Shown here piece by piece: positions 42,750 to 60,011 of a DNA stretch of 64,000 nt. The DNA lies in NCBI RefSeq assembly GCF_010993745.1, contig NZ_WOTN01000001.1:933235-997234 (forward strand). The letters are read 5' to 3'. This stretch comes from Fodinicola acaciae (GTDB lineage Bacteria > Actinomycetota > Actinomycetes > Mycobacteriales > HKI-0501). The stretch's first letter is position 1, and every line of letters starts with the position of its first letter. Position numbers and translations under genes: made by a program. The notes below the pieces were generated by a model, which saw only the letters and a list, made by a program, of their open reading frames with translations, was not told the origin of the DNA and ran no database searches.

Positions 42750-42775
42750 TTACCCGCGACGGCCGTTGTCGAAAC
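42750..42775 (-). promoter_or_regulatory. SigB-like promoter for the mrp operon
   Basis: On the minus strand GTTT (42775-42772), 16 bp, GGGTAA (42755-42750), a good match to GNNT-N14-16-GGGTA. Transcription would begin near 42743, about 3 nt before the mrpE start codon. It faces the promoter of the oxidase gene across 3 bp. Confidence 0.65.
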
Positions 42776-42778
42776 ACT

Positions 42779-42803
42779 GGTTCACGTCCGCGCGTACGGG
42801 TAA
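42779..42803 (+). promoter_or_regulatory. SigB-like promoter for the pox-udgX genes
   Basis: GGTT (42779-42782), 15 bp, GGGTAA (42798-42803). It lies 37 bp before the start of the pyruvate oxidase-like gene, which has its own ribosome-binding site AAAGGAG. Paired with the mrp promoter in a 100-bp divergent spacer. Confidence 0.62.
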
Positions 42804-42840
42804 CCAGGTGCGGACAGTTATCTGCGAAAGGAGTGTCGTC

Positions 42841-45275: not shown

Positions 45276-45294
45276 CCGGCGCAAACGTGGGTAT
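45270..45294 (+). promoter_or_regulatory. SigB-like promoter for the formate dehydrogenase operon
   Basis: GCAT (45270-45273), 15 bp, GGGTAT (45289-45294), spanning the end of udgX. Transcription would start at about 45301, only a few bases before the ATG at 45304, which has no ribosome-binding site. This suggests a leaderless message. Confidence 0.62.
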
Positions 45295-45303
45295 CTTGCG
45301 GTC

Positions 45304-48300
45304 ATGAGCGTACGGACGTGGCTGGACCAGTGGCCGGTCTACCGGCAGCTGACCGGCACCGATCCGCTCGGCCGCGGCGCCGCCGTGGAGTCGGCGACAA
45401 AGAAAACCGCGCGGACCGCGCAGGCGGACAAGGTGGTCCAGTCGGTCTGTCCGTACTGCGCGGTCGGCTGTGGCCAACGGATTTACGTGAAGGACGGTGC
45501 GGTCACCCAGATCGAAGGCGATCCGGACTCGCCGGTCTCCCGCGGCCGGCTGTGTCCGAAGGGGTCGGCGAGTAAACAACTCGTCAGCAATCCCAGTCGC
45601 GTTCATGAGGTCCTCCATCGCCGGCCGTACGGCACGGAATGGGAACGGCTGTCGCTGGACCAGGCGATGGAGATGATCGCCGACCGGGTTGTGGCCACCC
45701 GCCGGCAGACCTGGCAGGACGAGGACGGCGGCGAGCCGGTACGGCGGACGATGGGGATCGCCAGCCTCGGCGGCGCGACGCTGGACAACGAGGAAAACTA
45801 CCTGATGAAAAAGATCTACACCGCGATGGGCGCGGTGCAGATCGAGAACCAGGCACGTATTTGACACTCCGCCACGGTCCCCGGTCTGGGGACCTCGTTC
45901 GGTCGCGGCGGTGCCACGACGTTCCAGCAGGACCTGGCCAATGCCGACTGCATCGTGATCCAGGGATCCAACATGGCCGAATGCCATCCGGTCGGGTTCC
46001 AGTGGGTCGTGGAGGCCAAACAGCGCGGCGCCAGGGTGATCCACATCGATCCGCGGTTCACCCGTACGAGCGCGCTCGCCGACCAGTTCGTGCCGCTGCG
46101 CGCCGGATCCGACATCGTCTTCCTCGGTGCGCTGATCAACTACGTGCTGCAGAACGAAAAGGATTTCCGCGAGTACGTCGTCGCGTACACCAACGCGGGA
46201 GCGATCCTGCAGGAGGACTTCCGCGACACCGAGGACCTGGACGGCCTGTTTTCCGGCTATGACCCGGAGAGCCGCCATTACGACTCCGGCTCGTGGACGT
46301 ACGAGGGCGCCGAGGTGGCGGCCGCCGCCGGTCAGCGCGACCAGTGGGACCAGGACGCGGAGGAGACCGATTTTCCGCATGGTGGTCAGGCGTTGAAGGC
46401 TGGCTCGGCCGGCCAGCGCTACGGAAGCGGCGGTGCGGCCGTACACGCCAAGCCGAAAATCGACGAGACGCTGCGACATCCGCGTTGTGTGTATCAGGTG
46501 CTGAAGCGGCATTTCTCCCGCTACACACCGGAAATGGTCGAGCGGGTCTGCGGCATCGGGCGGCGCGACTTCGAAGCGGTCGCCGAGGCGATCACCGCCA
46601 ACTCCGGCCGCGACCGTACGACCGCGTGGGTCTACTCGGTGGGCTGGACGCAGCACACGGTCGGCTCGCAATACATCCGCTGCGCGTCGATTCTGCAGTC
46701 GCTGCTCGGAAACATCGGCCGGCCAGGTGGTGGCATCCTGGCATTGCGCGGCCACGCGAGCATCCAGGGCTCGACCGACATCCCGACGCTGTTCGACCTG
46801 TTGCCCGGTTACATTCCGATGCCACACGCGCACATGCACGAGGATCTCGACGGTTTCGTCGAGGCGGATGCCGGAAAGACCGGCTTCTGGGGAAACATGC
46901 GCGCATACACGGTGAGCCTGCTGAAGGCCTACTGGGGCGACGCGGCGACTGAGGAAAACGACTACTGTTTCGACTACCTGCCGAGGATCAATGCCGACCA
47001 CGGCACCTACACAACGGTTGTCGACCAGATCGCCGGCAAGGTCAAGGGCTATTTCCTGGTCGGGGAGAACCCGGCGGTCGGCTCGGCCAACGGCCGGATG
47101 CAGCGCTTTGGCCTGGCCAACCTCGACTGGCTGGTCGTACGCGACTTCTCGCTCATCGAGAGCGCGACCTTCTGGCGTAACGGTCCGGAAATCGAGACCG
47201 GCGAGCTGCGTACCGAGGAAATCGGCACCGAGGTGTTCTTCCTGCCGGCCGCGGCGCACACCGAGAAGGAAGGCAGCTTCACCAACACCCAGCGACTGCT
47301 GCAGTGGCACCGAAAAGCCGTCGAGCCGCCAGGTGAGGCGCGCAGCGACCTGTGGTTCTATTTCCACCTTGGCCGGATCCTTCGCGAGCGGCTGGCCGGC
47401 TCGAGTGATCCGCGCGACCGGCCACTGCTGGATCTGACCTGGGATTATCCGACGGAAGGCGAGCTGGCCGAGCCGAGCGCGGAGGCGGTGTTGGCCGAGA
47501 TCAACGGATACGGTCCGGACGGTCCGCTGTCGTCGTACACGGAGTTGAAGGACGACGGCTCCACGTCGTCGGGCTGCTGGATCTACTGCGGTGTCCACGC
47601 GAACGGCGAAAACCAGGCGGACCGCCGTAAACCGGGGACCGACCAGAGCTGGGTCGCGCCGCAGTGGGGCTGGGCCTGGCCGGCGAACCGGCGCATCCTC
47701 TACAACCGCGCGTCGGCGGACCCGGACGGCAATCCGTGGAGCGAGCGGAAAAAGTACGTCTGGTGGGACAGCGGCCAGCAGAAATGGGTCGGCGCGGACG
47801 TGCCGGACTTCGAGGCCACCAAGCCGCCCGACTACCGGCCGCCGGACGGTGCGCTCGCGCAGGATGCCTTGTCCGGCACCAATCCGTTCATCATGCAGAC
47901 CGACGGCCTGGCCTGGTTGTACGCGCCGGCCGGTCTGGCCGACGGGCCGCTGCCGGCGCATTACGAGCCGATCGAGTCTCCGCTGGCCAATCCGCTCTAT
48001 GGCCAGCAGACCAACCCGACCCACGAAGAGTTTCGCCACCGCGACAACACATATCATCCACGCGACCGGGTTTTTCCCTACGTCATCACCACATACCGGT
48101 TGACCGAGCACCACACCGCCGGCGGCATGAGCCGTACGCTGTCGCGGCTGTCCGAGCTGCAACCGGAGTTCTTCTGCGAGATTTCGCCGGCCCTGGCCCA
48201 GGAACGCGACCTGGTCAACGGTGGCTGGGCCACCATCGTGACGGCCCGTACGGCGGTTGAGGCACGCGTCCTGGTGACCGACCGCCTGCGCCCGCTGCGA

Positions 48301-48546
48301 CTGGACGGCCGCACGATCCACCAGATCGGCGTGCCGTATCACTGGGGGACCAACGGGGTTTCCGTCGGGGACTCGGCAAACGACCTGCTGGCCGTCGCGC
48401 TCGACCCCAACGTGCACATCCAGGAGTCGAAGGCGGCGACCGCGGACATCCGGCCGGGCCGAAGGCCACGTGGACCCGCGCTGCGCCGGCTGGTGGAGGA
48501 CTACCGGCGGCGTGCCGGCATCGACACGGAGGAGGCGAGGACGTGA
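45304..48546 (+). CDS. Selenocysteine-containing formate dehydrogenase, catalytic subunit
   Basis: A 1080-residue molybdopterin enzyme that oxidises formate to CO2. The 4Fe-4S site is C49-x2-C52-x3-C56 and C84 (CPYCAVGCG, GRLCPKG). The in-frame UGA at 45862-45864 (residue 187, context NQARI-Sec-HSATV) stands exactly where FdnG and FdhF have selenocysteine; after it the frame continues with FGRGGATTFQQDLANADCIV and AECHPVGFQWV, the FDH motifs. A SECIS hairpin follows. The molybdopterin cofactor-binding C-terminal domain is present (VVTARTAVEARVL). No twin-arginine signal is seen, so it should face the cytoplasm. The ATG at 45304 sits just after a SigB-like promoter. Operon with the Fe-S and NrfD-like subunits. 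Confidence 0.93.
45862..45900 (+). promoter_or_regulatory. Bacterial SECIS element directing selenocysteine insertion at UGA
   Basis: UGA is at 45862-45864. GGTCCCC (45876-45882) and GGGGACC (45888-45894) form a perfect 7-bp stem with the loop GGTCT (45883-45887). The E. coli fdhF SECIS has the same GGUCU loop, with the same 18 nt between UGA and loop. SelB binds this loop to bring Sec-tRNA to the ribosome. The match leaves little doubt that the UGA is read as selenocysteine. Confidence 0.93.
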
Positions 48547-49400
48547 GTCTGTCCGGTCCGTTGGCCGATCCCGCCGCCGATGCGGGACACGTCGGCCATC
48601 CGCCGCGGATGGGTTTCTTCACCGACACCTCTGTCTGCATCGGCTGCAAGGCGTGCGAGGTCGCCTGCAAGGAATGGAACGACGTGCCGGCCAAGGAGCT
48701 GGACCTGCTCGGCACGTCGTACGACAACACCGGTGAGCTCGGTGCCAACAGTTGGCGGCACGTCGCGTTCATCGAGCAGTCCAGACCGTCCACTGTGGAC
48801 CTCGGCATGCCGGGCGTACGCGACGAGCAGGACGGCGTGCGTTGGCTGATGTCCAGCGACGTCTGCAAACACTGCACGCACGCGGCCTGCCTGGACGTGT
48901 GCCCGACCGGCTCGCTGTTTCGCACCGAGTTCGGCACAGTGGTCGTGCAGGAGGACATCTGCAACGGTTGCGGTTATTGCGTGCCGGCCTGCCCGTACGG
49001 TGTGATCGAACGCCGCGAGAGCGACGGCCGCGCGTTCAAATGTACGTTGTGCTATGACCGGCTGGGTGACGGTTTGGAGCCGGCCTGCGCCAAAGCCTGT
49101 CCGACCGACTCGATCCAGTTCGGGGAGCTGGACGAGCTGCGCGAACGCGCCGACCGCAGACTCGCGGCGCTGCATGACAAAGGCGAGTCCGATGCACGAC
49201 TTTACGGCCGTGATCCTGACGATGGGGTCGGCGGCGACGGGGCTTTCTTCCTGTTGCTGGACGAACCGGAGGTCTATGGCCTGCCGCCGGAGCCGTTCGT
49301 CACGACACGCGACCTGCCCTCAATGTGGAAGCACGCCGCGGTCGCCGCACTCGGCGTCGCCGCCGGAGTTGTCCTTGCCTTTGCGGGGAAACGCCGATGA
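48543..49400 (+). CDS. Formate dehydrogenase iron-sulphur subunit
   Basis: A 285-residue ferredoxin-like electron-transfer subunit. Four 4Fe-4S cysteine groups are seen: CIGCKACEVAC near residue 32, CKHCTHAACLDVC near 108, CNGCGYCVPAC near 140, and CTLCYDRL plus CAKAC near 170. It passes electrons from the catalytic subunit to the membrane partner. A single membrane span lies at the C-terminus (about 264-283), as in FdnH/FdoH. GTG 48543 overlaps the catalytic-subunit stop. Confidence 0.93.
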   Translation: MSLSGPLADPAADAGHVGHPPRMGFFTDTSVCIGCKACEVACKEWNDVPAKELDLLGTSYDNTGELGANSWRHVAFIEQSRPSTVDLGMPGVRDEQDGVRWLMSSDVCKHCTHAACLDVCPTGSLFRTEFGTVVVQEDICNGCGYCVPACPYGVIERRESDGRAFKCTLCYDRLGDGLEPACAKACPTDSIQFGELDELRERADRRLAALHDKGESDARLYGRDPDDGVGGDGAFFLLLDEPEVYGLPPEPFVTTRDLPSMWKHAAVAALGVAAGVVLAFAGKRR

Positions 49401-50272
49401 CCGACTCGTACTATGGCCGGCCGATCCTGAAGGAACCGGCGTGGAAGGTGCCGGACGTGCCGGCGTACCTGTTTCTCGGCGGCCTGGCCGGTGCCTCGGC
49501 GGCCATGGCGGCGATGGCCGACGCCACCGGCCGCGCGAGCTTGCGCCGGAGCGGTCGCCTCGTCGCCGCCGGCGCGGCCACCGCGAGCGTCGGTGCGCTG
49601 GTCCACGACCTTGGCCGGCCGGCGCGTTTTCTCAACATGCTCAGGGTTTTCAAGCCGACCTCGCCGCTGTCGGTCGGATCCTGGATTCTGGCGCCATTTT
49701 CCGGACTGGCGACCGCTGCGGCCGGCTCGGAGGTCACCGGTTGGCTGCCGGGCGTCGGCCGGCTGGCCGGGATCGGCGCCGGTGTGCTCGGCCCGGCGAT
49801 GTGTACGTACACCTCCGTCCTGCTGGCCGACACGGCCGTGCCGGCCTGGCACGACAGCTATCCGGAGCTGCCGTTTGTCTTCGGTGGCAGCGCGATGACC
49901 AGCGCGGCCGGTGTGGCGATGCTCGCGGCCGCGCCGCAGGACCGGGCACCGGCACGAAAAATCGGCTGGATCGGCACCGCGATGGAGGTCGCCGCCGGCC
50001 TGCGGATGGAGCGAGGCCACGGCATCGTCAGCGAGCCGTACGCGCGCAGCGGCCTGCTGAAAGCCGGCCGCGGCCTCACCCTGCTCGGCGCCGGCCTGTC
50101 GGTTTTCGCGCGGCGCAGCCGGATCGCGGCGGCGGTGGCCGGCAGCGCATACCTGGCCGGTGGCGTCTGTACGCGCTTCGGCGTGTTCAACGCCGGCGTG
50201 GAATCCAGCCGCGACCCGAAATATGTGGTCGTACCGCAGAAACTCAATCGCCAGACGTCGAAAACACGCTGA
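49397..50272 (+). CDS. NrfD/PsrC-family membrane subunit of formate dehydrogenase
   Basis: A 291-residue membrane protein of about eight spans. PAYLFLGGLAGASAAMAAMA near residue 25 and HDLGRPARFLNMLRVFKPTSP near residue 72 are NrfD family signatures. It should anchor the complex and hand electrons to menaquinone, replacing the cytochrome b FdnI type. ATG 49397 overlaps the Fe-S subunit stop. Its 3' end overlaps the end of the convergent STAS gene by 29 bp. Confidence 0.9.
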   Translation: MTDSYYGRPILKEPAWKVPDVPAYLFLGGLAGASAAMAAMADATGRASLRRSGRLVAAGAATASVGALVHDLGRPARFLNMLRVFKPTSPLSVGSWILAPFSGLATAAAGSEVTGWLPGVGRLAGIGAGVLGPAMCTYTSVLLADTAVPAWHDSYPELPFVFGGSAMTSAAGVAMLAAAPQDRAPARKIGWIGTAMEVAAGLRMERGHGIVSEPYARSGLLKAGRGLTLLGAGLSVFARRSRIAAAVAGSAYLAGGVCTRFGVFNAGVESSRDPKYVVVPQKLNRQTSKTR

Positions 50273-50615
50273 GCGCCTCGTCGACGCTCGGATACGGGTT
50301 GAGGATGGTGAGCAGGCCGGTCGCCTCCATCGGACGCAGCACGACGCTCCCGGTGGCCACCACGGCCCACGGCCGGCCGGCCGCGGCGGCGCGCTCGTGT
50401 GACTGGATGAGCGTGGCCAGCCCGGCCGACCCGAGGAAGGCGACGTTGCGCAGGTCGATGACGACCGGGCTGGACTCGCGTTCGGCCAGATAGTCCTGCA
50501 ACGACGGGGAAGTGTTGAGATCGAGGTCGCCGCTGACGCGTACGACGGCGACCGCGCCGTGCTCCTGACAGTCGAGAGTGATGTCGCCTGGTGCGACCGA
50601 AATCGGCTCTTTCAC
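50244..50615 (-). CDS. STAS-domain anti-sigma factor antagonist
   Basis: A 123-residue SpoIIAA/RsbV-like protein. VVRVSGDLDLNTSP starts the fold and VIDLRNVAFLGSAGLATLIQ near residue 60 holds the conserved Asp-x-Ser-type phosphosite region (LGSAGL). In partner switching, the unphosphorylated form binds the anti-sigma ATPase and frees the sigma factor. GTG 50615 follows GGGAG. The partner may be any of the HATPase proteins in this window. Confidence 0.88.
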   Translation of the reverse strand: MKEPISVAPGDITLDCQEHGAVAVVRVSGDLDLNTSPSLQDYLAERESSPVVIDLRNVAFLGSAGLATLIQSHERAAAAGRPWAVVATGSVVLRPMEATGLLTILNPYPSVDEALSVFSTSGD

Positions 50616-50949
50616 GAGAGATCTCCCTTTGTCGGCCTGCGGTCGACTGGGACGCGGTGCTGGTCGCCGGTGCGGCGACACCCAGCCAGCTCGACGACTG
50701 GCAGGCGCCATCGTCGAGGCGGCTAGCTGCTGAACCGCAACTCCACCGTACGACCGGAACACGCCGGGCGGCAACCTGCCGAGCCGTGCCGGGTCCGCGG
50801 GCGGCAGCGGATACGATCATGGCTGACCAGACGGTTGAGCAGACAGCCACTGGTGGACAGCGCGAGTTTCCAGCGATTTCGCGTGTCCCGGCCGTGTCAT
50901 CCCAACCGTCGATGGAGAAACCCATGTCCCGCGTCCCGTTTTCCCAGCA
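50616..50949. other. 334-bp spacer between STAS and GAF-ANTAR genes
   Basis: This divergent spacer holds the two promoters. A small plus-strand frame from ATG 50819 (44 codons, ending MSRVPFSQH) overlaps the TTG start of the next gene by its TGA, but has no ribosome-binding site and no known relative. TACGAT at 50812-50817 could be a -10 box. No SigB-like element was found here. Confidence 0.4.
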
Positions 50950-51723
50950 TTGACCAGCGAGCGAGCGTGGGCCGAGGACAAGGCCAGGTTCGTGGCCACC
51001 GATCCGACCGCCGCGTCTCTGGGGCCGTTGGCCAGCCAGTTCGCGCAGCTCGGCCGCCGGCTGGCGGCGCCGACTGTCGCCGAGCTGCTAGAGCATCTGG
51101 TGACGGCGGCGCAGACCGTCCTGCAGGGCGCCGAGCTGGTCAGCGTCACGCTGCGCGACGCACGCGGCGACTTCAGCACGCCGGTGCACACGGATGCGCT
51201 GGCCGTACGGCTGGACGAGCTGCAATACCGCTATGACGAGGGCCCCTGCGTGGCCGCGACGCGTACGCCGGGTGAGGGCCTGGTCGTCGACCCGGACCTG
51301 CACACGAGCGTGCTGTGGCGCCGCTGGGGACCGGCGGCGGCCAAGCTCGGCGTCGGCAGTGTGCTCGCCGTCGGCCTGTTTCCCTACAGTGAGCCGCCGC
51401 GGCTCGGCGCGCTGAACGTCTACAGCTCGCGCTCCGGCGGCCTGGACGGCATCGACCTGGACTCCGCGGTGTTGCTGGCCAGCCACGCGGCGATCGCGCT
51501 GACCGCGACGCAGGCGCTCACCGCGGCGGAAATGGAGGCGTCCCAGCTGCGGGCGGCGCTCGCCTCGCGCGATGTCATCGGCCAGGCCAAAGGCGTGCTG
51601 ATGGAGCGCCGCGGTTGTACGGCCGAGGAGGCGTTCGACATCCTGCGCCGGACTTCGCAGCAGCTGAACGTCAAGTTGGCCGAGCTGGCCGACGCCGTGG
51701 TGGCTCGGCGCCGCCGCCTGTGA
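50950..51723 (+). CDS. GAF and ANTAR domain protein, paralogue of the gene at 37515
   Basis: A 257-residue protein. GAF spans about residues 35-180 (VTLRDARGDFSTPVHTDALA, RTPGEGLVVDPDL) and ANTAR 190-250 (SRDVIGQAKGVLMERRGCTA). Motifs match the 37515 protein almost position for position, so the two arose by duplication. The start is probably TTG 50950, without a clear ribosome-binding site but overlapping the TGA of a short upstream frame. Predicted to act on RNA terminators; targets unknown. Confidence 0.82.
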   Translation: MTSERAWAEDKARFVATDPTAASLGPLASQFAQLGRRLAAPTVAELLEHLVTAAQTVLQGAELVSVTLRDARGDFSTPVHTDALAVRLDELQYRYDEGPCVAATRTPGEGLVVDPDLHTSVLWRRWGPAAAKLGVGSVLAVGLFPYSEPPRLGALNVYSSRSGGLDGIDLDSAVLLASHAAIALTATQALTAAEMEASQLRAALASRDVIGQAKGVLMERRGCTAEEAFDILRRTSQQLNVKLAELADAVVARRRRL

Positions 51724-51725
51724 CT

Positions 51726-51750
51726 GCGTAGGGGGCGGTCAGCCGGGTAT
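51726..51750 (+). promoter_or_regulatory. SigB-like promoter for the anti-sigma ATPase gene
   Basis: GCGT (51726-51729), 15 bp, GGGTAT (51745-51750), 45 bp before the gene at 51796. If real, the regulator gene would be transcribed by the sigma factor it may control, a common feedback layout. Confidence 0.55.
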
Positions 51751-51795
51751 CCATTGGTTGACAGTCCTGGAAAAACGGGATGGAGGTGAGCGGCA

Positions 51796-52158
51796 ATGCC
51801 TGGCCCGGTGGAGATCCGGGTGCCGGCCGAGCTGCGGCAGCTGGCGGTGGTCCGGGCCGTGGCCAGCACACTGGCGGAGCGGCACAATCTCGACCTGGAC
51901 GCCATTTCCGACCTGACGATGGCCGCCGACGAGGTCTGCGCGGAGCTGGTCGAGCGCGCGCAGCGGGGGACGACGGTGGCGTGCCGGTTCGACGTGAACA
52001 ACGCGGTGTTCCGGATCCACGGCAGCGTACGGCCACAGAGCCGCGGCGCGCAGAGCACGACGTCGTTTGGCTGGCGGGTGCTCACCACGTTGATGGACGG
52101 CGCCGACTCCTGGCAGGAAGGCAAGAACCTGCACATCAGCGCGGTCAGGACCTGTTGA
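51796..52158 (+). CDS. RsbW-like anti-sigma ATPase domain protein
   Basis: A 120-residue single-domain GHKL-type protein. VEIRVPAELRQLAVVRAVAS starts the fold, and DLTMAADEVCAELVERA near residue 40 is the N-box region. The C-terminal part (SFGWRVLTTLMDGADSW) resembles the end of RsbW-like proteins, but the G1 box is poor (no DxGxG), so ATP binding is uncertain. GGAGGTG precedes ATG 51796. Likely role: holding a stress sigma factor. Confidence 0.72.
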   Translation: MPGPVEIRVPAELRQLAVVRAVASTLAERHNLDLDAISDLTMAADEVCAELVERAQRGTTVACRFDVNNAVFRIHGSVRPQSRGAQSTTSFGWRVLTTLMDGADSWQEGKNLHISAVRTC

Positions 52159-52270
52159 CGTCCGGTGCCTCGATGCTGACGTCATCGTCCGGCGGGTCCT
52201 GACCCGCCGGACTTTCCGTCTGGTACGCGCGATCCGCCGCGTCGGCGGCCGCGACCGCCTCCTCGTTCAC
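52145..52270 (-). CDS. Small acidic protein of 41 residues
   Basis: The frame begins MNEEAVAAADAADRAYQ (GTG start) and continues with a Pro/Asp-rich run (DPPDDD), with 11 acidic and 3 basic residues. GTG 52270 overlaps the TGA of the DJ-1/PfpI gene (GTGA), the coupling pattern used by true operons in this window, and no other gene fills the space. Its end overlaps the end of the convergent anti-sigma gene by 14 bp. Function unknown. It resembles in character the acidic protein at 56970-57161. Confidence 0.5.
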   Translation of the reverse strand: MNEEAVAAADAADRAYQTESPAGQDPPDDDVSIEAPDVNRS

Positions 52271-52815
52271 TGTCTGGCCGCGAAAAGCTCGACGAGATGT
52301 CCGCAGAACGCCGGCAGGTCGTCGGGTTTGCGGCTGCTGACCAGGAATCCGTCGGTCACCACCTCGTGGTCGACCCAGGTGGCGCCGGCGTTACGCAGGT
52401 CGGTTCGCAGGCTTGGCCACGACGTGAGCGTACGGCCGCGTACGACATCGGCCTCGATCAGCGTCCACGGACCATGACAGATCACCGCGACCGGCTTTTT
52501 CTGGTCGAAGAACCCGCGCACGAACGCGACGGCGTCCTCGTCGGTGCGCAGGAAGTCGGGATTGGCCACTCCGCCGGGCAACACCAGCGCGTCGAAGTCG
52601 TCGGCGGTCGTCTTGGACACCACCTGGTCGACCGGAAACCTGTCACCTTTGTCCAGATGGTTGAAGGCCTGCACCTCACCGTCCGATGTGGACACCAGCG
52701 CCGGTGAGCCGCTCGCTTCCTCGACCGCCTTCCACGGCTCTGTCAGCTCGACCTGCTCAGCGCCTTCCGGCGCCACCAGAAACGCGATCTTCTTGCCAGT
52801 CAGGGTTGTCGACAC
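52267..52815 (-). CDS. DJ-1/PfpI family protein (class I glutamine amidotransferase-like)
   Basis: A 182-residue protein. KKIAFLVAPEGAEQVELTEP at the start, LVLPGGVANPDFLR near residue 77 and AVICHGPW with the nucleophile Cys113-His114 are characteristic of the PfpI/YhbO group. Members act as glyoxalase III-like, protein or nucleotide deglycase-like, or chaperone proteins under stress. GAGGAGG lies 5 bp before GTG 52815. A strong terminator separates it from the upstream membrane-protein gene. Confidence 0.9.
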   Translation of the reverse strand: MSTTLTGKKIAFLVAPEGAEQVELTEPWKAVEEASGSPALVSTSDGEVQAFNHLDKGDRFPVDQVVSKTTADDFDALVLPGGVANPDFLRTDEDAVAFVRGFFDQKKPVAVICHGPWTLIEADVVRGRTLTSWPSLRTDLRNAGATWVDHEVVTDGFLVSSRKPDDLPAFCGHLVELFAARQ

Positions 52816-52836
52816 GTTTTCCTCCTCGGATAGAAA

Positions 52837-52868
52837 CAGGCCCGCCTCCTCGGTGAGAGGCGGGCCTG
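52837..52868 (-). terminator. Intrinsic terminator of the membrane-protein gene
   Basis: CAGGCCCGCCTC (52837-52848) and GAGGCGGGCCTG (52857-52868) form a perfect 12-bp stem with an 8-nt loop. On the minus strand TTTCTA follows. It lies 10 bp past the stop of the gene at 52878-53276. Confidence 0.75.
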
Positions 52869-52877
52869 CCGGGCGAG

Positions 52878-53276
52878 TCAACTCGCCGGATGGGTTTCCA
52901 GCGATGACTCCTGCAGCCGCTTGGAAAGCAGGCTCGCCACGCCACCGATCACCAGGCCACCGGCCAAAGCGATCGCGGTGAGCGGCCAACGCCGCTGTTT
53001 CTTGCCACGCAAAACCAGCGAAGCCTCGCCGGCGCGCCGGTTCGCCTCGGCGATCATTCGGCGGCTCTGGCGCAGTTTCTTCGCCGACTTGCGTCCGTTG
53101 GCCGGCAGCTCGGCGAGCGTCGTCACCGCCTTGTCCAGGTGTGGCTTGGCTGTGACGTAGGTCTCCTTCGCCGCCCGGCCGCCGGATTTCGCGGCCTGGC
53201 GCAGGTGTCCGAGGCTCTCGTTGAGCTCGGTCGTCATGCGTTGTCGCGATCGGGTGACCGCGTTCTTACGGAACAT
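52878..53276 (-). CDS. Small membrane-anchored protein of unknown function
   Basis: A 132-residue basic protein with a long helical N-terminal part (ESLGHLRQAAKSGGRAAKET, KLRQSRRMIAEANRRAGEAS) and one membrane span at about residues 96-118 (PLTAIALAGGLVIGGVASLL). The layout resembles YtxH/ElaB-like stress proteins, but no family motif is certain. AAGGAG precedes ATG 53276, and a SigB-like promoter lies upstream. Confidence 0.7.
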   Translation of the reverse strand: MFRKNAVTRSRQRMTTELNESLGHLRQAAKSGGRAAKETYVTAKPHLDKAVTTLAELPANGRKSAKKLRQSRRMIAEANRRAGEASLVLRGKKQRRWPLTAIALAGGLVIGGVASLLSKRLQESSLETHPAS

Positions 53277-53314
53277 CGTCCGTCTCCTTCTGGAGGGGTC
53301 AGCCTTTTCCTGGA

Positions 53315-53340
53315 CTACCCGGCGCTTCGACGTGTGAAAC
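53315..53340 (-). promoter_or_regulatory. SigB-like promoter for the membrane-protein gene
   Basis: On the minus strand GTTT (53340-53337), 16 bp, GGGTAG (53320-53315), 38 bp before the start at 53276. It overlaps the divergent element at 53332-53358. Confidence 0.65.
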
Positions 53341-53358
53341 CGGGGGTGGAGCGGGTAC
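53332..53358 (+). promoter_or_regulatory. Possible SigB-like promoter for the HhH-GPD gene
   Basis: GTGT (53332-53335), 17 bp, GGGTAC (53353-53358). The spacer is 1 bp over the usual 14-16. It lies 30 bp before ATG 53389, which has AGGAGAGGAG just upstream. Confidence 0.45.
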
Positions 53359-53388
53359 TAGGAGGGTGAGTCGCGAAGGAGAGGAGCT

Positions 53389-54012
53389 ATGGCTGCATCG
53401 GACAAGACGGTCCATCGCCTGCTCGAGGTCGCCGGCCGCACGTACGCGCAGGAGGCCGGCATCCGGCTCAAGGACACGCCGGCCTCGCTCTATCAGCTGC
53501 TCGTGCTGGCGACGCTGTTGTCGGCCAGGATCAACGCCAAGATCGCCGTCGCGGCCGCGGCGGAGCTGCGCCGCGGCGGTTTCACCACACCGCAACGGAT
53601 GCGCGATGCGAGTTGGCAGGAGATCGTCGACGCGCTCGGACGCGCCCACTACCGGCGTTACGACGAGAGCACGGCGACCGCGCTTCGCGACGGCGCGCAG
53701 CTGTTGATCGACCGCTATCACGGGGATTTGCGCCAGCTGCGCGGGAAAAACGACATGTGCCGGCGGCTGCGGGAGATCCCGCGGATCGGCCCGGCCGGAG
53801 TGGACATCTTCTGCCGCGAGGTGCAGGCGATCTGGCCGGAGCTGCGGCCGTATTTCGACGGCAAGGCGCTCGACAGCGCCAAGCGCGTCGGTCTGCCGAT
53901 GGATCCGGGGAAACTCGCCGACCTGGTTGGCGACGACCAGGTGGCCGACCTGGCCGCGGCGCTGGTACGCGCCACGATCGACAAGGACGTACGCGAGGAA
54001 TTGGCTGCTTGA
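53389..54012 (+). CDS. HhH-GPD-like (endonuclease III fold) protein without the usual catalytic residues
   Basis: A 207-residue protein. LYQLLVLATLLSARINAKIA matches the start of the endonuclease III fold (LLSAQTTD region) and REIPRIGPAGVDIFCREVQ the helix-hairpin-helix. In endonuclease III the hairpin ends GRKTA with the catalytic Lys, and an Asp follows in VDTHV; here the Lys position is Ala/Gly and no VDTHV is found. No C-terminal 4Fe-4S cysteines either. It may bind DNA without cleaving it or use other residues. It lies next to Ku, consistent with a repair role. Confidence 0.7.
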   Translation: MAASDKTVHRLLEVAGRTYAQEAGIRLKDTPASLYQLLVLATLLSARINAKIAVAAAAELRRGGFTTPQRMRDASWQEIVDALGRAHYRRYDESTATALRDGAQLLIDRYHGDLRQLRGKNDMCRRLREIPRIGPAGVDIFCREVQAIWPELRPYFDGKALDSAKRVGLPMDPGKLADLVGDDQVADLAAALVRATIDKDVREELAA

Positions 54013-54017
54013 TGGCC

Positions 54018-54042
54018 GTTTGACCGGCATCCCAGGGGGTAA
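54018..54042 (+). promoter_or_regulatory. SigB-like promoter for the Rho_N-ku operon
   Basis: GTTT (54018-54021), 15 bp, GGGTAA (54037-54042), 37 bp before ATG 54080. A close fit to the GNNT-N14-16-GGGTA form. Confidence 0.62.
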
Positions 54043-54079
54043 GTCGATCTACGTAGTGCCGTTGAGCAGAGGAGGAATC

Positions 54080-54412
54080 ATGCCGCAGCAGGCGTGGAGC
54101 GACAAACGAGAGCGGCAATACGAGCACATCAAGGACTCGCAGAAGGACCGCGGCGCGAGCGAGAGCCGCGCGGAGGAGATCGCGGCGCGTACGGTCAACA
54201 AGAACCGCGCGCAGAGCGGAGAGTCGCGCCAGGCAAGCAAAACTTCGACGCAGGACGTGTCGCCACAGCACCGCGGTGGCAAGCGGTCCGGCCGACGAGA
54301 GGGGCCCGGCGGGCCGACCCGTGACCAGCTTTACAACGAGGCGAAGAAAAAGAACATCAAGGGCCGCTCCAACATGACCAAGAAGGAGCTGCAGCGGGCG
54401 CTGGGTCGCTGA
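54080..54412 (+). CDS. Small basic protein with C-terminal Rho_N/SAP-like motif
   Basis: A 110-residue highly charged protein. The N-terminal half (WSDKRERQYEHIKDSQKDRG, SESRAEEIAARTVNKNRAQS) resembles actinobacterial plasmid-stabilisation-like proteins. The end, TRDQLYNEAKKKNIKGRSNM then TKKELQRAL, is a Rho N-terminal/SAP-like helix pair that binds nucleic acid. The same motif ends the Ku protein, whose gene follows after 1 bp. GGAGGA precedes ATG 54080. A DNA-repair or chromatin role is inferred from this link. Confidence 0.75.
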   Translation: MPQQAWSDKRERQYEHIKDSQKDRGASESRAEEIAARTVNKNRAQSGESRQASKTSTQDVSPQHRGGKRSGRREGPGGPTRDQLYNEAKKKNIKGRSNMTKKELQRALGR

Positions 54413-54413
54413 C

Positions 54414-55307
54414 ATGCCACGGCCGATCTGGAGCGGCTCGATCAGCTTCGGCCTGGTGACGATCCCGGTCGCGCTTTTCACCGCGACCGAGGACCACACC
54501 GTGCATTTCCACCAGTACGAACGGGACAGCACGGACCGGATCCGCTATCAGCGGGTCAACGAGCGTACCGGCCAGGAGGTCGACTACGCCGACATCGTGA
54601 AGGGCCGCGAGGTCGGTGGCAGGCTCGTCCAACTGGAGCAGCAGGAACTGGACGACATCGCTCCTGGCCGGTCCCGTTCGTTGGAGATCGACACCTTCGT
54701 GGACCTGGCCGACATCGACCCGATCTACTTCCAGAAGACCTACTGGCTGGCGCCGGCCGGCGAGGACAGCGAGCGGCCGTATTTCCTGCTGCTGGAGGCG
54801 ATGAGCCGCACCGGAAAGGCCGGCGTCGCGCTGTTTGTCATGCGCGGCAAGCAGTATCTGACGGTCATCCGGCCGGACCGTGACGTACTCGCGCTGGACA
54901 CGCTGTTTTTCGCCGACGAGATACGGGATCCGGCCGATGTCGTGGAGAACGCGCCAAAGAAGCGCGGCGGCAAGGACCTGGACATGGCCGAGCGGCTGGT
55001 CGAGTCGATGAGCGGCGAGTGGAAACCGGAGGACTTCCGGGACACCTACACCGAAAAGGTCAACGCGCTGATCCGCGACAAGGCCAAGGGCCGCAAGGCG
55101 AAAGTGGCCGACGAGCCGCCCGAGCCGACCGAAGCCGTGGACCTGTTGGAAGCGCTGCGCGCGAGTGTCACGCGGCGCAAGAAAAAGAGCGCGACGGCGG
55201 CGGTGTCCAAGAAGGAGCTGATGGAGACCGCCAAGGAACTCGACATTCCCGGCCGGTCGAAGATGTCCCGCGAGGAGCTGGAAAAGGCGGTCAGGAAGGC
55301 CTCCTGA
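54414..55307 (+). CDS. ku: Ku protein of bacterial non-homologous end joining
   Basis: A 297-residue protein. MPRPIWSGSISFGLVTIPV is the hallmark bacterial Ku N-terminus, and residues 10-230 form the DNA-encircling core. The C-terminal extension (residues 230-297) is lysine-rich and ends in SKKELMETAKELDIPGRSKM, a Rho_N/SAP-like helix pair. Ku binds double-strand ends and recruits LigD; no ligD is in the window. It is downstream of the Rho_N protein and the SigB-like promoter at 54018. Confidence 0.95.
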   Translation: MPRPIWSGSISFGLVTIPVALFTATEDHTVHFHQYERDSTDRIRYQRVNERTGQEVDYADIVKGREVGGRLVQLEQQELDDIAPGRSRSLEIDTFVDLADIDPIYFQKTYWLAPAGEDSERPYFLLLEAMSRTGKAGVALFVMRGKQYLTVIRPDRDVLALDTLFFADEIRDPADVVENAPKKRGGKDLDMAERLVESMSGEWKPEDFRDTYTEKVNALIRDKAKGRKAKVADEPPEPTEAVDLLEALRASVTRRKKKSATAAVSKKELMETAKELDIPGRSKMSREELEKAVRKAS

Positions 55308-55312
55308 CCGCC
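55286..55312. terminator. Terminator hairpin overlapping the ku stop codon
   Basis: GGCGGTCAGGA (55286-55296) and TCCTGACCGCC (55302-55312) form a perfect 11-bp stem with a 5-nt loop, containing the ku TGA (55305-55307). Reading leftward, the stem is followed by TTTTC, so it serves the convergent LLM operon best and may work in both directions. Confidence 0.7.
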
Positions 55313-55325
55313 CGTTCGGCGTTCC

Positions 55326-56291
55326 TCAGCCACGAAGTGCCGGCAGCAGCTCGGACTCGGCGTAGGACAGGAAGTCGAGCTGGCTCTCGTCACCGATCTG
55401 TACGACCGCGACATCGGTGAACCCGGCGTCCGCGAATGCGGAAACGGCCTCGACGATGGCGTCGGTGTCTGGTCCGCAGGGAATGTTGTCGGCGACGTCC
55501 TCGGGACGTACGAACTGCGTCGCGCCGGCGAAACCGGCCGGTCCCGGCAACTCGGCGTTGACCTTCCAGCCGCCGGCGAACCAGCGGAACTGGTCGTGCG
55601 CTCGCGCGATCGCCTTGTCCCGGTCGCGGTCCCAGCAGATCGGCAGCTGGCCGATCTTCCGGTCGGCCGTACGGCCGGACACCGCGTCCCACGTCTCGGC
55701 CAGCTCAGCGGTTGGCTCGACCGCGATCATGGCGTCGGACTTCGGTGCGAACAGCCGGATCGACTGCTCACCGGAGACAGCCGTGGCGATCGGTACGCCG
55801 CCGTCGGGCCGGTCCCAGAGCCGCGCGGAGTCGACGTTGAAATGCCGTCCGCGATAGGTGACGTCGTCTCCGCCGAGCAACCTGGTGATGATGTCGATCG
55901 CCTCGCCGAGCATCTCGTGGCGCGTGTTGACCGGCGGCCAACCGCGTCCGACGACGTGCTCGTTCAGGTTTTCTCCGGCGCCGATGCCGAGAGTGAAACG
56001 GCCGTCGGACAGCAGCTGCACGGTCGCGGCTTTCTGCGCGACGACCGCCGGGTGATAGCGCATGATCGGACAGGTCACATACGTCATCAGGTCGATCCGG
56101 CTGGTGACCTGGCTGACCGCGCCGAGCGTGCTCCACGCGTACGGCGCGTGTCCTTGTGTTGCCAGCCAAGGGAAATAGTGGTCGCTCATGACCGCGAAGT
56201 CGAAGCCGGCCTTCTCCGCGCCAGCGGCATAGCGGACCAGCTCTCGCGGTCCGGACTGCTCGGTCATCAGCGTGTAGCCGTATCGGCTCAT
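55326..56291 (-). CDS. LLM-class oxidoreductase, F420-dependent glucose-6-phosphate dehydrogenase-like group
   Basis: A 321-residue luciferase-like TIM barrel. GYTLMTEQSGPRELVRYAAG at the N-terminus, FAVMSDHYFPW near residue 33, RFTLGIGAGENLNEHVVG near residue 105 and the length match the TIGR03557-type group related to F420-dependent glucose-6-phosphate dehydrogenase. The true substrate is unknown. ATG 56291 follows AGAGGA. It is the last gene of a three-gene minus-strand operon starting at 56880. Confidence 0.85.
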   Translation of the reverse strand: MSRYGYTLMTEQSGPRELVRYAAGAEKAGFDFAVMSDHYFPWLATQGHAPYAWSTLGAVSQVTSRIDLMTYVTCPIMRYHPAVVAQKAATVQLLSDGRFTLGIGAGENLNEHVVGRGWPPVNTRHEMLGEAIDIITRLLGGDDVTYRGRHFNVDSARLWDRPDGGVPIATAVSGEQSIRLFAPKSDAMIAVEPTAELAETWDAVSGRTADRKIGQLPICWDRDRDKAIARAHDQFRWFAGGWKVNAELPGPAGFAGATQFVRPEDVADNIPCGPDTDAIVEAVSAFADAGFTDVAVVQIGDESQLDFLSYAESELLPALRG

Positions 56292-56317
56292 GATGTCCTC
56301 TCCGAGCCAACGGGCTC

Positions 56318-56602
56318 TCAAAATGGTTCGCGGCGCCGCCGGCGGTCCGCGACCCACAGTGCGCCGACCGCGGCCGCGCCGGCCAGCCCGAGGATCACGA
56401 AGAAAAGGTTGCCGGCGATGCCGCCGAACAGGGTGACCAGCAGTGCGAGGCCGAGCAACATGATGCGGATCTCCGTACGGCCGTGCCAGGCGACATCGGA
56501 TCTCGCTGCCATCCGGTGAAACCTGGCCACCCAGACCGGGTCGCTCTGCTGCAGGTCGCGCTCGATCTCGCGGAGCCGGCGCCAATCGTAGAGACTGGAC
56601 AT
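56318..56602 (-). CDS. DUF3040 family small membrane protein
   Basis: A 94-residue protein. LYDWRRLREIERDLQQSDPV at the N-terminus is a variant of the DUF3040 start (LSehErrlLreiEr.L..dDP), followed by two membrane spans at about 45-90. Function unknown; the family is common in actinobacteria. It lies 2 bp after the stop of the upstream gene and 26 bp before the LLM gene. Confidence 0.8.
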   Translation of the reverse strand: MSSLYDWRRLREIERDLQQSDPVWVARFHRMAARSDVAWHGRTEIRIMLLGLALLVTLFGGIAGNLFFVILGLAGAAAVGALWVADRRRRREPF

Positions 56603-56604
56603 CG

Positions 56605-56880
56605 CTAGTCCGCCAGCCGTGTCCGCAACGCCGGCAGGAAGGCCGGATCGGCGATCGCCAGCTCGGCCAGGTCGAGATCTTCCGGCAGTTGCTCGGGTTC
56701 CCAGGACTCCAGCAGCAGCTCCAGCGCCTGGTGGACCAGCTCGTCGGCGTCCACCGCACCCAGCTGTGCGATCACTTTTGCCTGCGGACACAGCGAAAGG
56801 TGCCGGATCACGTCCCCTGGTTGGAAGACGGCGACGTACTCGTCATCGCCGAACGGGTGCAGGGTCAGCGGCGCCTCCAC
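56605..56880 (-). CDS. Conserved-looking small acidic protein, function unknown
   Basis: A 91-residue protein, reading LTLHPFGDDEYVAVFQPGD near the start and then a helical acidic C-terminus (HQALELLLESWEPEQLPEDL). No domain is recognised. AAGGTGG lies 7 bp before GTG 56880 and a SigB-like promoter is further upstream. First gene of the operon with DUF3040 and the LLM oxidoreductase. Confidence 0.7.
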   Translation of the reverse strand: MEAPLTLHPFGDDEYVAVFQPGDVIRHLSLCPQAKVIAQLGAVDADELVHQALELLLESWEPEQLPEDLDLAELAIADPAFLPALRTRLAD

Positions 56881-56928
56881 GGCTCGACCACCTTTCCGGT
56901 CGCGGCGGAAAAACTCGGCGATCTGTGG

Positions 56929-56953
56929 ATACCCCGCCGGTGCCGGCCGAAAC
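56929..56953 (-). promoter_or_regulatory. SigB-like promoter for the 56880-55326 operon
   Basis: On the minus strand GTTT (56953-56950), 15 bp, GGGTAT (56934-56929), 48 bp before GTG 56880. Confidence 0.65.
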
Positions 56954-56969: not shown

Positions 56970-57161
56970 TCAGCCGTTCAGCACGTCGTCGGCGTTCTCG
57001 TGCTCGGTGTTGCCGTAATCGCTGGCCGGCCGGTCGTCCGATGGTTCGCGCGCGCCGGGCGCTTCGGTGTCCGGCGTGGGTGACCCGCCGGCGGCCGGCC
57101 GCCGGTCGGGATGCGACGCGTCCGGCGCCACCGGGTCAGGTCGTCCTTCGATATCGGACAT
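56970..57161 (-). CDS. Small acidic disordered protein (63 residues)
   Basis: A 63-residue protein rich in Pro, Asp, Glu, Ser and Gly (SDIEGRPDPVAPDASHPD at the start, SDYGNTEHENADDVLNG at the end), predicted to be unstructured. GAGGAG at 6 bp before ATG 57161 and a SigB-like promoter support expression. Similar small acidic proteins are common in stress regulons of actinobacteria; no function is known. Confidence 0.65.
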   Translation of the reverse strand: MSDIEGRPDPVAPDASHPDRRPAAGGSPTPDTEAPGAREPSDDRPASDYGNTEHENADDVLNG

Positions 57162-57186: not shown

Positions 57187-57222
57187 CCCCGCATACCCGG
57201 CTGGTCCATCGGGTATGCGGGG
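57187..57222. promoter_or_regulatory. Palindrome made of two face-to-face SigB-like promoters
   Basis: CCCCGCATACCC (57187-57198) and GGGTATGCGGGG (57211-57222) are exact inverted copies, 12 bp apart. Rightward: GCAT (57191-57194), 16 bp, GGGTAT (57211-57216), for the gene at 57249. Leftward: GCAT (57218-57215), 16 bp, GGGTAT (57198-57193), for the gene at 57161. Each -35 box overlaps the other's -10 box, so the two promoters cannot be used at the same moment. Confidence 0.68.
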
Positions 57223-57248
57223 GCGGACAGCGAAAGGAGAAACCAAAA

Positions 57249-57713
57249 GTGAGTACGGTTCAGGAGTCGTTCGACGTCGAGGTGCCGATCCGCGAGGCGT
57301 ACGACCAGTGGACGCAGTTCGAGACCTTCCCGGCGTTCATGCAGGGGGTCAAGTCGGTCACCCAGGTCGACGACACGCATCTGCACTGGGACGTCTCGAT
57401 CGTCGGCCAGAAACGCGAGTTTGACACGGTCATCACCGAGCAGCATCCGGACGAGCGGATCGCCTGGAAGAGCACCGGCGGCGACGTCCAGCACGCCGGT
57501 GTGGTGACCTTCCACCGGCTCAACGACGACCAGACCAGGATCACCGTCCAGCTGGAGTGGGAACCTTCGACTGTCGCCGAGAAGGTCGGCAGTGCCGTAC
57601 AGGCCGACACGATCCAGATCAAGACCGACGCGACCCGGTTCAAGGAGTTCGTGGAGGCGCGCGGCCGGGCCACCGGCGGCTGGCGAGGTGACGTGCCGCG
57701 GCCGGCCGGCTGA
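57249..57713 (+). CDS. SRPBCC (polyketide cyclase/dehydrase-like) family protein
   Basis: A 154-residue START-like fold protein. VQESFDVEVPIREAYDQWTQ, FETFPAFMQGVKSVTQVDD and the helix at the C-terminus (TDATRFKEFVEARGRATGG) match the cyclase/dehydrase group often found in actinobacterial stress gene sets. It should bind a hydrophobic ligand; none is known. AAAGGAGA precedes GTG 57249, and the palindromic promoter lies upstream. Confidence 0.85.
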   Translation: MSTVQESFDVEVPIREAYDQWTQFETFPAFMQGVKSVTQVDDTHLHWDVSIVGQKREFDTVITEQHPDERIAWKSTGGDVQHAGVVTFHRLNDDQTRITVQLEWEPSTVAEKVGSAVQADTIQIKTDATRFKEFVEARGRATGGWRGDVPRPAG

Positions 57714-57750: not shown

Positions 57751-58974
57751 GTGCCGGAGGTCCTGTCGCCGGGAGCCGGTGGCCGGCTCCAGCAGATCCA
57801 GTCCGTGATGGAGGCTGGCCTGACCCGGCTGCCCGCCGAGCAGCTCGTGGTCGAGTTGCTGGAGCGCGTACGCGAGGCGCTGGCCGCCGACACGGTGACC
57901 ATCCTTGAGGTCGAGGCCGGGTCCAGCTATCTGGTGGCGACGGTCTCCAGGGGCCTTGAGGAAGAGGTCGAGCAGGCGGCCCGGGTGCCGGTCGGCGCCG
58001 GCTTCGCCGGCCGGGTCGCCGCCGAGCGGCGGTCGGTCATGCTTGAGCGGGTGACCAGCACGAACGTGGTCAACCCGGCGCTGATCGCGGCCGGCATCCG
58101 CTCGGTGCTCGGCGTGCCGCTGCTGGCCGAGAACAGCATGCTCGGCGTGCTGCACGTCGGCACCCGCAAGGAGCGCGCGTTCAGCAAGGACGACGCCGAC
58201 CTTCTGCAGATGGTCGCCGACCGGATCGCGCTGGTGCTTCGTACGGAGCAGGCGCGCGACGACAGCAAGGCGGCGCGGGCCCTGCAGCGCAGCCTGATGC
58301 CGGGCCGGTTGCCGCAGGTGGTCGGGCTGGAGCTGGCGGCACGCTATGTGCCCGGCGCCGACGAGGCGGTCGGCGGCGACTGGTATGACGTGTTCACCCT
58401 GGAGTCCGGCCGGTTCTGCGCGGTGATGGGAGACGTGGCCGGTCACGGCCTGCCGGCGGCGGTGGTGATGGGCCGGCTGCGCAGCGCTCTGCGCGCGTAC
58501 GCGCTGGAATACGACGACCCCGCCGAGGTGCTCGAGCGGCTGGACGCGAAGGCGCGCCACTTCGAGGCCGGCGCGATGGCGACCGTCCTCTACGCGGTGT
58601 TCGAGCCGGACCTGAGCGAGGTGCGGATCTCGCTCGCCGGCCACCTGCCGCCGGTCCTGGCCGCTGCCGGCGAGCCCGCGGTGTCCTTGACTGACGTACC
58701 GGTGGATCCGCCGGTCGGCGTACACGCGCGACGGCGGCGCCGGGCGACCAAGCTCGCGATGCCGTCGGACGCGGTGCTGTGCCTGTTCACCGACGGACTG
58801 GTCGAGCGGCGCGGCGAGGACATCGACCGTGGCCTCGGACAGCTGGTGCGCACCGTGCACGTCGAGCGCGCCGACGCGCTCTGCGCGACAATCATGGCGA
58901 CCATGGTTGGTCACGAGGTGGCTCAGGACGACATCGCCCTGCTGGTTTTGCGCCGGCATGGGGCTGCTTCGTGA
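57751..58974 (+). CDS. GAF-SpoIIE protein phosphatase (PP2C)
   Basis: A 407-residue protein. GAF covers about residues 20-165 (LTRLPAEQLVVELLERV, VPVGAGFAGRVAAERRSVM) and SpoIIE-type PP2C about 185-400 (GGDWYDVF, MGDVAGHGLPAAVVMGRLR, LCLFTDGLVERRGED), keeping the metal-binding Asp residues. It should dephosphorylate a STAS antagonist and so release a sigma factor. STAS and ATPase genes follow at once, suggesting a complete module. GTG start at 57751. Confidence 0.9.
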   Translation: MPEVLSPGAGGRLQQIQSVMEAGLTRLPAEQLVVELLERVREALAADTVTILEVEAGSSYLVATVSRGLEEEVEQAARVPVGAGFAGRVAAERRSVMLERVTSTNVVNPALIAAGIRSVLGVPLLAENSMLGVLHVGTRKERAFSKDDADLLQMVADRIALVLRTEQARDDSKAARALQRSLMPGRLPQVVGLELAARYVPGADEAVGGDWYDVFTLESGRFCAVMGDVAGHGLPAAVVMGRLRSALRAYALEYDDPAEVLERLDAKARHFEAGAMATVLYAVFEPDLSEVRISLAGHLPPVLAAAGEPAVSLTDVPVDPPVGVHARRRRRATKLAMPSDAVLCLFTDGLVERRGEDIDRGLGQLVRTVHVERADALCATIMATMVGHEVAQDDIALLVLRRHGAAS

Positions 58975-59001
58975 CCGCGCGTACTGAGGCAAAATGTCAA
59001 T

Positions 59002-59367
59002 ATGACCTCCGGAGAATCCGTGCGAGCTAGCAACGAGGTCGCCATCCGGGTGGAGCAGTTCGGCGAGGCAACCGTGCTCAGCGTCGCCGGCGACATGGAC
59101 ATGACCACCACCCCAGCGGTGCAGGCCGCGGTGATCAAGGCCCTCGACGAGCGTCCGGGCACGGTGGTGCTGGACATCGACGAGGTGACCTTCCTCGGGT
59201 CGGACGGCATCGCGGTGCTGGTCCGCTGCCATCAGTACGCCGGGTCGCAGGTGCGTTTCCGGGTGGTGGCGCTCAACCCGGTGAGCCTGCGGCCGATGCA
59301 GCTGACCGGCCTGATCGACGTCATCCCGATCTATCCGACCCGGGAGGAGGCTCTCGGCGCGGACTGA
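59002..59367 (+). CDS. STAS-domain anti-sigma factor antagonist
   Basis: A 121-residue SpoIIAA/RsbV-like protein. VLSVAGDMDMTTTPAVQAAV starts the fold and VVLDIDEVTFLGSDGIAVLV near residue 54 carries the phosphosite loop, with Ser before Asp (LGSDG). It lies 27 bp after the SpoIIE gene and 31 bp before an RsbW-like gene, so SpoIIE, STAS and ATPase probably form one partner-switching unit. Confidence 0.9.
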   Translation: MTSGESVRASNEVAIRVEQFGEATVLSVAGDMDMTTTPAVQAAVIKALDERPGTVVLDIDEVTFLGSDGIAVLVRCHQYAGSQVRFRVVALNPVSLRPMQLTGLIDVIPIYPTREEALGAD

Positions 59368-59398
59368 CGGCAACGTCAGGCCGGTCCGTACAACGCCG

Positions 59399-59815
59399 AT
59401 GGTCTCCGATCTCTACCACCGGGTGCCGGCCCTGGCCGGCGAGCTGCCGGCATTGCGGCACGAGCTGGCCGCCTGGTCCGGGTCGGCCGGGCTGAGTCCG
59501 CAGGCCGCGCAGGTGATCGTGCTGGCCAGCTACGAGGCGATGGCCAACGTCGTCGACCACGCGTATCGCAACGTGAGAGGTGCGCTGGAGCTGCGTGCGG
59601 TGTGCGAGCCGGACGGTGGGTCGGGCGCCGCGGTGAACATCACGGTGACCGACTTCGGCCGGTGGCGGCCGCTGCCGGCCGATCCCGGCGTACGCGGGCG
59701 CGGCCTGCTGTTGATGCGGCGGCTCGCCACGCGTACCGACATCGACGCGACCGAACGCGGCACCACCGTCACCCTGTGGTGGTCGGCGGACAGCCTGAAG
59801 ACGCTGTCGATCTGA
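59399..59815 (+). CDS. Anti-sigma regulatory factor-type ATP-binding protein
   Basis: A 138-residue GHKL ATPase-fold protein. LASYEAMANVVDHAYRN is the N-box, TDFGRWRPLPADPGVRGRGL the G1/G2 region, and RRLATRTDIDATERGTTVTL the end. It is a close paralogue of the protein at 21090-21530. It should bind the STAS protein just upstream and a sigma factor. The C-terminal tail SLKTLSI is beyond the normal fold. Confidence 0.87.
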   Translation: MVSDLYHRVPALAGELPALRHELAAWSGSAGLSPQAAQVIVLASYEAMANVVDHAYRNVRGALELRAVCEPDGGSGAAVNITVTDFGRWRPLPADPGVRGRGLLLMRRLATRTDIDATERGTTVTLWWSADSLKTLSI

Positions 59816-59980: not shown

Positions 59981-60011
59981 CGGCTAGTGTCCCGCGTCGG
60001 GACACTAGCCG
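59981..60011. terminator. Terminator hairpin 2, overlapping the SpoIIE stop codon
   Basis: CGGCTAGTGTCCC (59981-59993) and GGGACACTAGCCG (59999-60011) form a perfect 13-bp stem with loop GCGTC. The right arm contains the TAG stop of the minus-strand SpoIIE gene (60005-60007). It follows hairpin 1 after 2 bp and is probably a two-way stop. Confidence 0.65.

Follow-up and report, generated by a model that had tools for sequence, protein, structure and literature searches.

So far, two-way transcription from bacterial promoters has mostly been ascribed to the near-symmetry of the -10 element of housekeeping promoters. Since TATAAT is nearly symmetric, the sigma-70 bidirectional promoters of Escherichia coli share one -10 between both directions, and according to the accessible part of this work competition mattered only when one direction was strongly activated (Warman et al., NAR 2026, PMC12825309). 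The two starts of such promoters are most often 18 bp apart, distances of 10 or 23 bp also occur, and the range is 7-25 bp by definition, as far as given in the accessible part of PMC10268837. For the CfrBI and Ecl18kI restriction-modification systems, promoters are described that overlap and cannot both be bound by polymerase at the same time. The side is chosen there by methylation or by a repressor part of the methyltransferase itself; SigB-type boxes are not mentioned in the accessible part of this review (PMC12707154). For the SigB family, the accessible part of PMC8346170 gives the promoter SCO0566p of Streptomyces coelicolor as GCATAA-N14-GGGTAT, i.e. GCAT-N16-GGGTAT, with a start listed as mapped. 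It is recognised by SigB, G, K, L and M, apparently in an E. coli two-plasmid system, and for the SigB/L/M group the -35 GNNT is reported.

In the 64,000 nucleotides of Fodinicola acaciae DNA analysed here (the window), a 36-base palindrome, CCCCGCATACCC-N12-GGGTATGCGGGG, lies at 57187-57222 between two oppositely facing genes. Its perfect arms (57187-57198 and 57211-57222) enclose a 12-base centre, as the first-pass annotation had stated with the same coordinates. An extra inner pair (57199 G, 57210 C) lengthens the arms to 13 bases, and the centre is palindromic at one pair only. The focal copy is the only exact one in the 8.86-Mb genome. Perfect inverted repeats with arms of at least 12 and loops of 3-20 bases occur four times in the window, compared to a mean of 0.2 and a maximum of 2 in 30 dinucleotide-shuffled windows. 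When the 87-base intergenic stretch itself was dinucleotide-shuffled 20,000 times, neither a comparable palindrome nor GNNT-N15/16-GGGTA[TC] on both strands was obtained in any shuffle. Elsewhere in the window, an inverted repeat with perfect 15-base arms (ATGCGTGCGCATAGA) and a loop of 10 bases was observed at 26761-26800. A perfect 14-base inverted repeat at 59981-60011, between convergent RsbW-like and PAS-SpoIIE genes, runs into the 3' end of the PAS-SpoIIE gene and is perhaps a two-way terminator.

The gene to the right of the palindrome (57249-57713, forward strand, GTG start) encodes an SRPBCC-family protein of 154 amino acids (Pfam PF03364, 4.4e-18) with a distant match to DR_A0006 (3ggn/2kcz, 1.2e-07). 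Its ribosome-binding site AAAGGAG at 57233-57239 ends 9 bases before the GTG. To the left, an ORF of 63 residues (56970-57161, reverse strand) starts with an ATG at 57161, preceded by GAGAGGAG. The gene pair is thus the one named before, an SRPBCC protein and an acidic 63-mer, the latter comprising 15 D/E compared to 5 R and no K. The GC content of the 63-mer by codon position (0.78, 0.59, 0.83) is compatible with coding, which is a weak argument. Among 61 genomes no convincing relative of the 63-mer was found, just weak, low-complexity-like matches, and a domain search returned no family match. Directly downstream of the SRPBCC gene, partner-switching-type genes follow at 57751-59815 on the forward strand, namely a GAF-SpoIIE phosphatase (57751-58974), a STAS gene (59002-59367) and an RsbW-like HATPase (59399-59815). 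On the reverse strand, a SigB-type promoter of the form GTTT-N15-GGGTA (56930-56953) precedes a 91-amino-acid ORF at 56605-56880.

A SigB/SigF-type promoter was defined as a GNNT or GTTT -35, 14-17 bases and a GGGTA[TCG] -10, with a start codon shortly downstream. Within the palindrome, GCAT-N16-GGGTAT can be read on both strands, as previously annotated. The rightward copy, directed to the SRPBCC gene, has its -35-like box GCAT at 57191-57194, read from the sequence and paralleled by SCO0566p, and its -10-like box GGGTAT at 57211-57216, ending 32 bases before the GTG. The leftward copy, directed to the 63-mer gene, has its -35-like box GCAT at 57218-57215 (reverse strand), read from the sequence, and its -10-like box GGGTAT at 57198-57193 (reverse strand), placed by geometry only and ending 31 bases before the ATG. 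The ribosome-binding sites and start codons stand at mirror distances from both promoters. The leftward -35 and the rightward -10 overlap at 57215-57216, the rightward -35 and the leftward -10 at 57193-57194. These overlaps comprise just two bases each, so that the earlier claim that each -35 lies inside the other's -10 does not hold. With starts placed about 7 bases beyond each GGGTAT, transcription would begin near 57223 on the forward and near 57186 on the reverse strand, giving leaders of about 25 bases in both directions.

Compared to SCO0566p, the -35, the -10 and the spacing of the focal promoters are identical; the S. coelicolor SigB-family promoters are single, and in the accessible part of PMC8346170 none is described as overlapping a divergent one, unlike the focal pair. 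With the E. coli sigma-70 bidirectional promoters, as far as described in the accessible sources, the focal site has in common the short DNA, and presumably also the divergent transcripts and a polymerase that can occupy the site in only one of the two orientations at any moment. It differs from them in its presumably SigB-type sigma factor and in its two separate -10s, each of which overlaps the other promoter's -35, and its predicted starts are separated by about 37 bp, compared to the 7-25 bp and the shared -10 that define the E. coli class. The CfrBI promoters are likewise divergent and associated with inverted repeats (accessible part of PMC12707154).

The genome encodes three SigBFG sigma factors above the curated cut-off of TIGR02980, a model that gave weak matches in 10 of 14 control genomes and a match above the cut-off in one. 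Sites of the form GTTT-N13-18-GGGTA were found five times in the window (0.32 expected), and the genome contains 53 sites of the form GTTT-N15/16-GGGTA compared to 16 of the reversed control pattern. Among 30 of these 53 sites that were screened, 15 are followed by a start codon and a ribosome-binding site and the other 15 are not, a few of the latter appearing rRNA-like by eye. It has to be considered that the focal -35 is GCAT, unlike the GTTT pattern used for these genome counts. Eight GTTT-N15/16-GGGTA sites lie within 35 kb (window 38835-56953; genome C1:972069-1006660), and the window seems to sit in a SigB-type regulon island.

SigB-type promoters also occur as back-to-back divergent pairs, TACCC-N-AAAC-N3-GTTT-N-GGGTA, with the -35 boxes 3 bases apart. 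Eleven such sites were found in 9 of 298 genomes (this one and eight others; reversed control 0), not all of them between divergent genes. Like the focal promoters, the two members are on opposite strands and close enough for polymerases to clash; the pairs, however, sit side by side with -35 against -35, whereas the focal promoters are laid over each other. The pairs of the own genome, with GTTT-N15/16-GGGTA, are located at C2:2020093-2020143 (L177), C3:300762-300814 (L186) and C4:951172-951224 (L187), and among their neighbours are, by eye, Ppx/GppA-like, MFS-like and transketolase-like ORFs. About 200 bases from the L186 pair lies the SigBFG sigma gene with the best score (C3:301010-301681, reverse strand; together C3:300762-301681, L186 and L204), and the rightward promoter of this pair points antisense into the gene. 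In four genomes of the genus g33 (L181, L182, L183, L185), a 3-base back-to-back pair stands by a carboxylate-amine-ligase-like ORF (by eye) and may be a conserved promoter pair. A perfect-consensus version of the overlapping layout, GTTTACCC-N10-14-GGGTAAAC, was found in 2 of 298 genomes and was set aside, since neither site lies between divergent predicted genes.

For the rightward promoter, the upstream regions of the best 80 of 588 confirmed SRPBCC relatives were analysed. GGGTA[TCG] is present 15-90 bases upstream in 41 of the 80 (4.66 expected), and the complete GNNT-N14-17-GGGTA[TCG] precedes 37 of them, compared to 0.62 expected and a maximum of 3 in 200 shuffles. Since SigB-type boxes stand ahead of these 37 SRPBCC relatives, the predicted rightward promoter, including its -10, is well supported. 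The leftward focal promoter rests on geometry. The shared-box layout was found in none of the 80 within 150 bases upstream, and the only other genome of the genus examined, which is 74% complete, gave no SRPBCC match.

Among 397 genomes of the order, ATACCC-N12-GGGTAT occurs at 20 sites, three of which carry GCATACCC-N12-GGGTATGC: the focal site, L166 and L167. L166 with its full GCAT flanks was rejected as a further case, because no divergent predicted genes surround it. A second N12 site of the own genome (C1:2653326), between a tRNA-like stretch (by eye) and an alpha/beta-hydrolase-like ORF, was rejected because its leftward -35, CGAT, breaks GNNT. L167 is flanked by two divergent genes at distances of about 30 bases, an SRPBCC gene (PF10604) on one side and a YihY/BrkB gene (PF03631) on the other. 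In a survey of 60 genomes of the genus g33, the SRPBCC protein was present in 49, at 50 places, all of which were taken with 1-1.5 kb flanks. The shared-box palindrome is found at all 18 loci with YihY in the flank compared to none of the 32 without it. At 13 of these 32 YihY-less loci a single SRPBCC-directed GNNT-N14-17-GGGTA[TCG] was determined, compared to 0.27 expected from mononucleotide shuffles.

The palindrome of the 18 g33 loci has the form [AG]TACCC-N11/12-GGGTAT, and GNNT-N15/16-GGGTA[TC] is kept on both strands in every one of them. Sixteen loci have the spacing N11 and two have N12, and the promoter spacers of 15 and 16 are both present among the GTTT sites of the focal genome. 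As the left -10, 15 loci carry GGGTAT and the other three GGGTAC, whereas the right -10 is GGGTAT in all; the left -35 is GCAT throughout, and the right -35 is GCAT in 10, GAAT in five and GAGT in three. The G and T of the -35 and GGGTA[TC] of the -10 are thus held on both sides in 18 of 18. Every column is invariant in TACCC (5 of 5) and in GGGTATGC (8 of 8), compared to 1 of 11 in the spacer; among the leader columns, 12 of 31 are invariant on the SRPBCC side and 4 of 23 on the YihY side, where the leader is partly gapped. Since the 18 loci are one orthologous locus, they probably reflect one evolutionary event, and the independent cases of the layout are two, the g33 locus and the focal site. 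Altogether, the reading of the first-pass annotation that two SigB-like promoters share their boxes is well supported by SCO0566p, the SRPBCC relatives and the 18 of 18 g33 loci, with the correction that the boxes overlap and are not nested.

Based on these data, the palindrome is quite probably a bidirectional SigB/SigF-type promoter, i.e. two complete promoters on the same DNA in opposite directions. A different explanation would be that it is the operator of a dimeric transcription factor covering just one SigB-type promoter, that of the SRPBCC gene, which we consider rather unlikely. The focal arms are indeed more symmetric than two promoters need, and elsewhere ATACCC...GGGTAT arms look operator-like. 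In L155, L156 and L157, a perfect palindrome ATACCCGTGCAACCGCACGGGTAT, comprising the outer arms and an inner GTGC/GCAC, stands between ArsR-like and cysteine-rich ORFs (by eye); it is likely a metal operator and as such a confounder for the promoter motif. In the order scan (ATACCC-N0-30-GGGTAT in 150 relatives), N4 and N5 forms dominate among the matches listed, and these palindromes may be copper operators. Five of the 20 ATACCC-N12-GGGTAT sites are inside predicted genes, and several are beside metal-responsive-looking regulators (by eye). Operators of the ArsR/CsoR type (so named by eye) share the six-base half-sites ATACCC...GGGTAT with the focal site, but they comprise mostly a spacing of 4-5 among the matches listed or a fully palindromic centre, and regulator-like genes adjoin them, whereas among the genes examined no regulator gene adjoins the focal palindrome, whose centre is largely non-palindromic. 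Selected symmetry and a fixed spacing, as expected for an operator, were looked for at the g33 loci rather than at the focal site. There, the symmetry is broken between the -10s in 3 of 18 (GTACCC facing GGGTAT), the right -35 deviates from GCAT in 8 of 18 and the spacing varies between 11 and 12, although both promoter rules are obeyed throughout. This drift of symmetry under conserved promoter rules favours promoters over an operator.

Less probable still would be activity of the rightward promoter alone; the leftward GGGTAT and the symmetry would then be incidental, and the 63-mer either unexpressed or transcribed from another promoter. This would agree with the missing relatives and family match of the 63-mer and with the comparative support, which around the focal gene is found on the SRPBCC side only. 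On the other hand, the 63-mer has a good ribosome-binding site and a start at the mirror distance, its codon-position GC adds the weak argument given above, and promoters on both strands were absent from all 20,000 shuffles. That the palindrome could be a functionless inverted repeat arisen by chance is very improbable. Arms of 12 bases around a 12-base gap are not astronomically rare in a whole GC-rich genome, and N12 sites are thinly scattered over the relatives, some of them inside genes; against this stand the location between divergent starts, the promoter content on both strands, the shuffle results and the conservation of the layout at the g33 loci. An excess of the N12 spacing in general is not claimed. 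In 394 genomes of the class, GCATACCC-N6-30-GGGTATGC gave 14 sites, five of them with N12, and this apparent peak was rejected because four of the five (L193, L194, L195, L203) are apparently orthologous; once orthologues are merged, spacing 12 is not clearly enriched. These four sites, from four genomes of one genus, keep GCATACCC-N12-GGGTATGC with a variable spacer and lie about 190 bases from a membrane-like ORF of 64-66 amino acids.

Returning to the bidirectional SigB/SigF-type promoter, the geometry can be described as follows. Since GGGTAT is not self-complementary, it cannot be shared in two directions as TATAAT can. Read as its complement, the opposing -10 can accommodate a GNNT -35, since the T of GNNT is provided by the invariant A of GGGTA. 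The AT of each GCAT would then double as the end of the opposing -10, and the 12-base centre would place the two SigB promoters over each other. The sixth letter of the -10 fixes the third letter of the -35, so that a GTTT -35 would need GGGTAA. Under stress, the holoenzyme would take up only one of the two orientations at any time and fire the gene on that side, SRPBCC or 63-mer. Both genes would be induced together and compete for one site, and the equal boxes would lead to a similar proportion of firing. Given the steric overlap, the polymerase probably starts one gene or the other, both at once being unlikely; the stricter claim of the first-pass annotation that the two never fire at the same instant would be a consequence of this overlap. 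We infer the use of SigB at the focal site and the position of both starts, and exclusion, equal output and any effect on noise at this site would be consequences of the layout. Since competition at the sigma-70 promoters matters only under strong activation, exclusion here may be of consequence only when SigB is strongly induced.

Divergent promoters that overlap and exclude each other are already known; the combination of an alternative sigma factor with a reciprocal -10/-35 overlap is new here. In the literature searched on divergent, bidirectional and overlapping promoters, with subscription journals largely outside the coverage, no earlier description of the reciprocal-overlap layout was recognised. 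Whether alternative-sigma bidirectional promoters of this kind form a distinct, selectable class, with paired stress genes in competition for a single polymerase site, is in our judgement evenly balanced. If this is true, the overlap dictating the third -35 letter would steer such sites to GNNT-tolerant sigma factors. The rule that the opposing -10 sets the third base of the -35 is a concrete and checkable constraint, and with identical boxes, one sigma class and two presumed stress genes, the site would be a small natural system in which to study competition between polymerases. Next to the near-symmetric housekeeping -10, the focal case would represent a second geometry for two-way promoters, open to sigma factors with an asymmetric -10.
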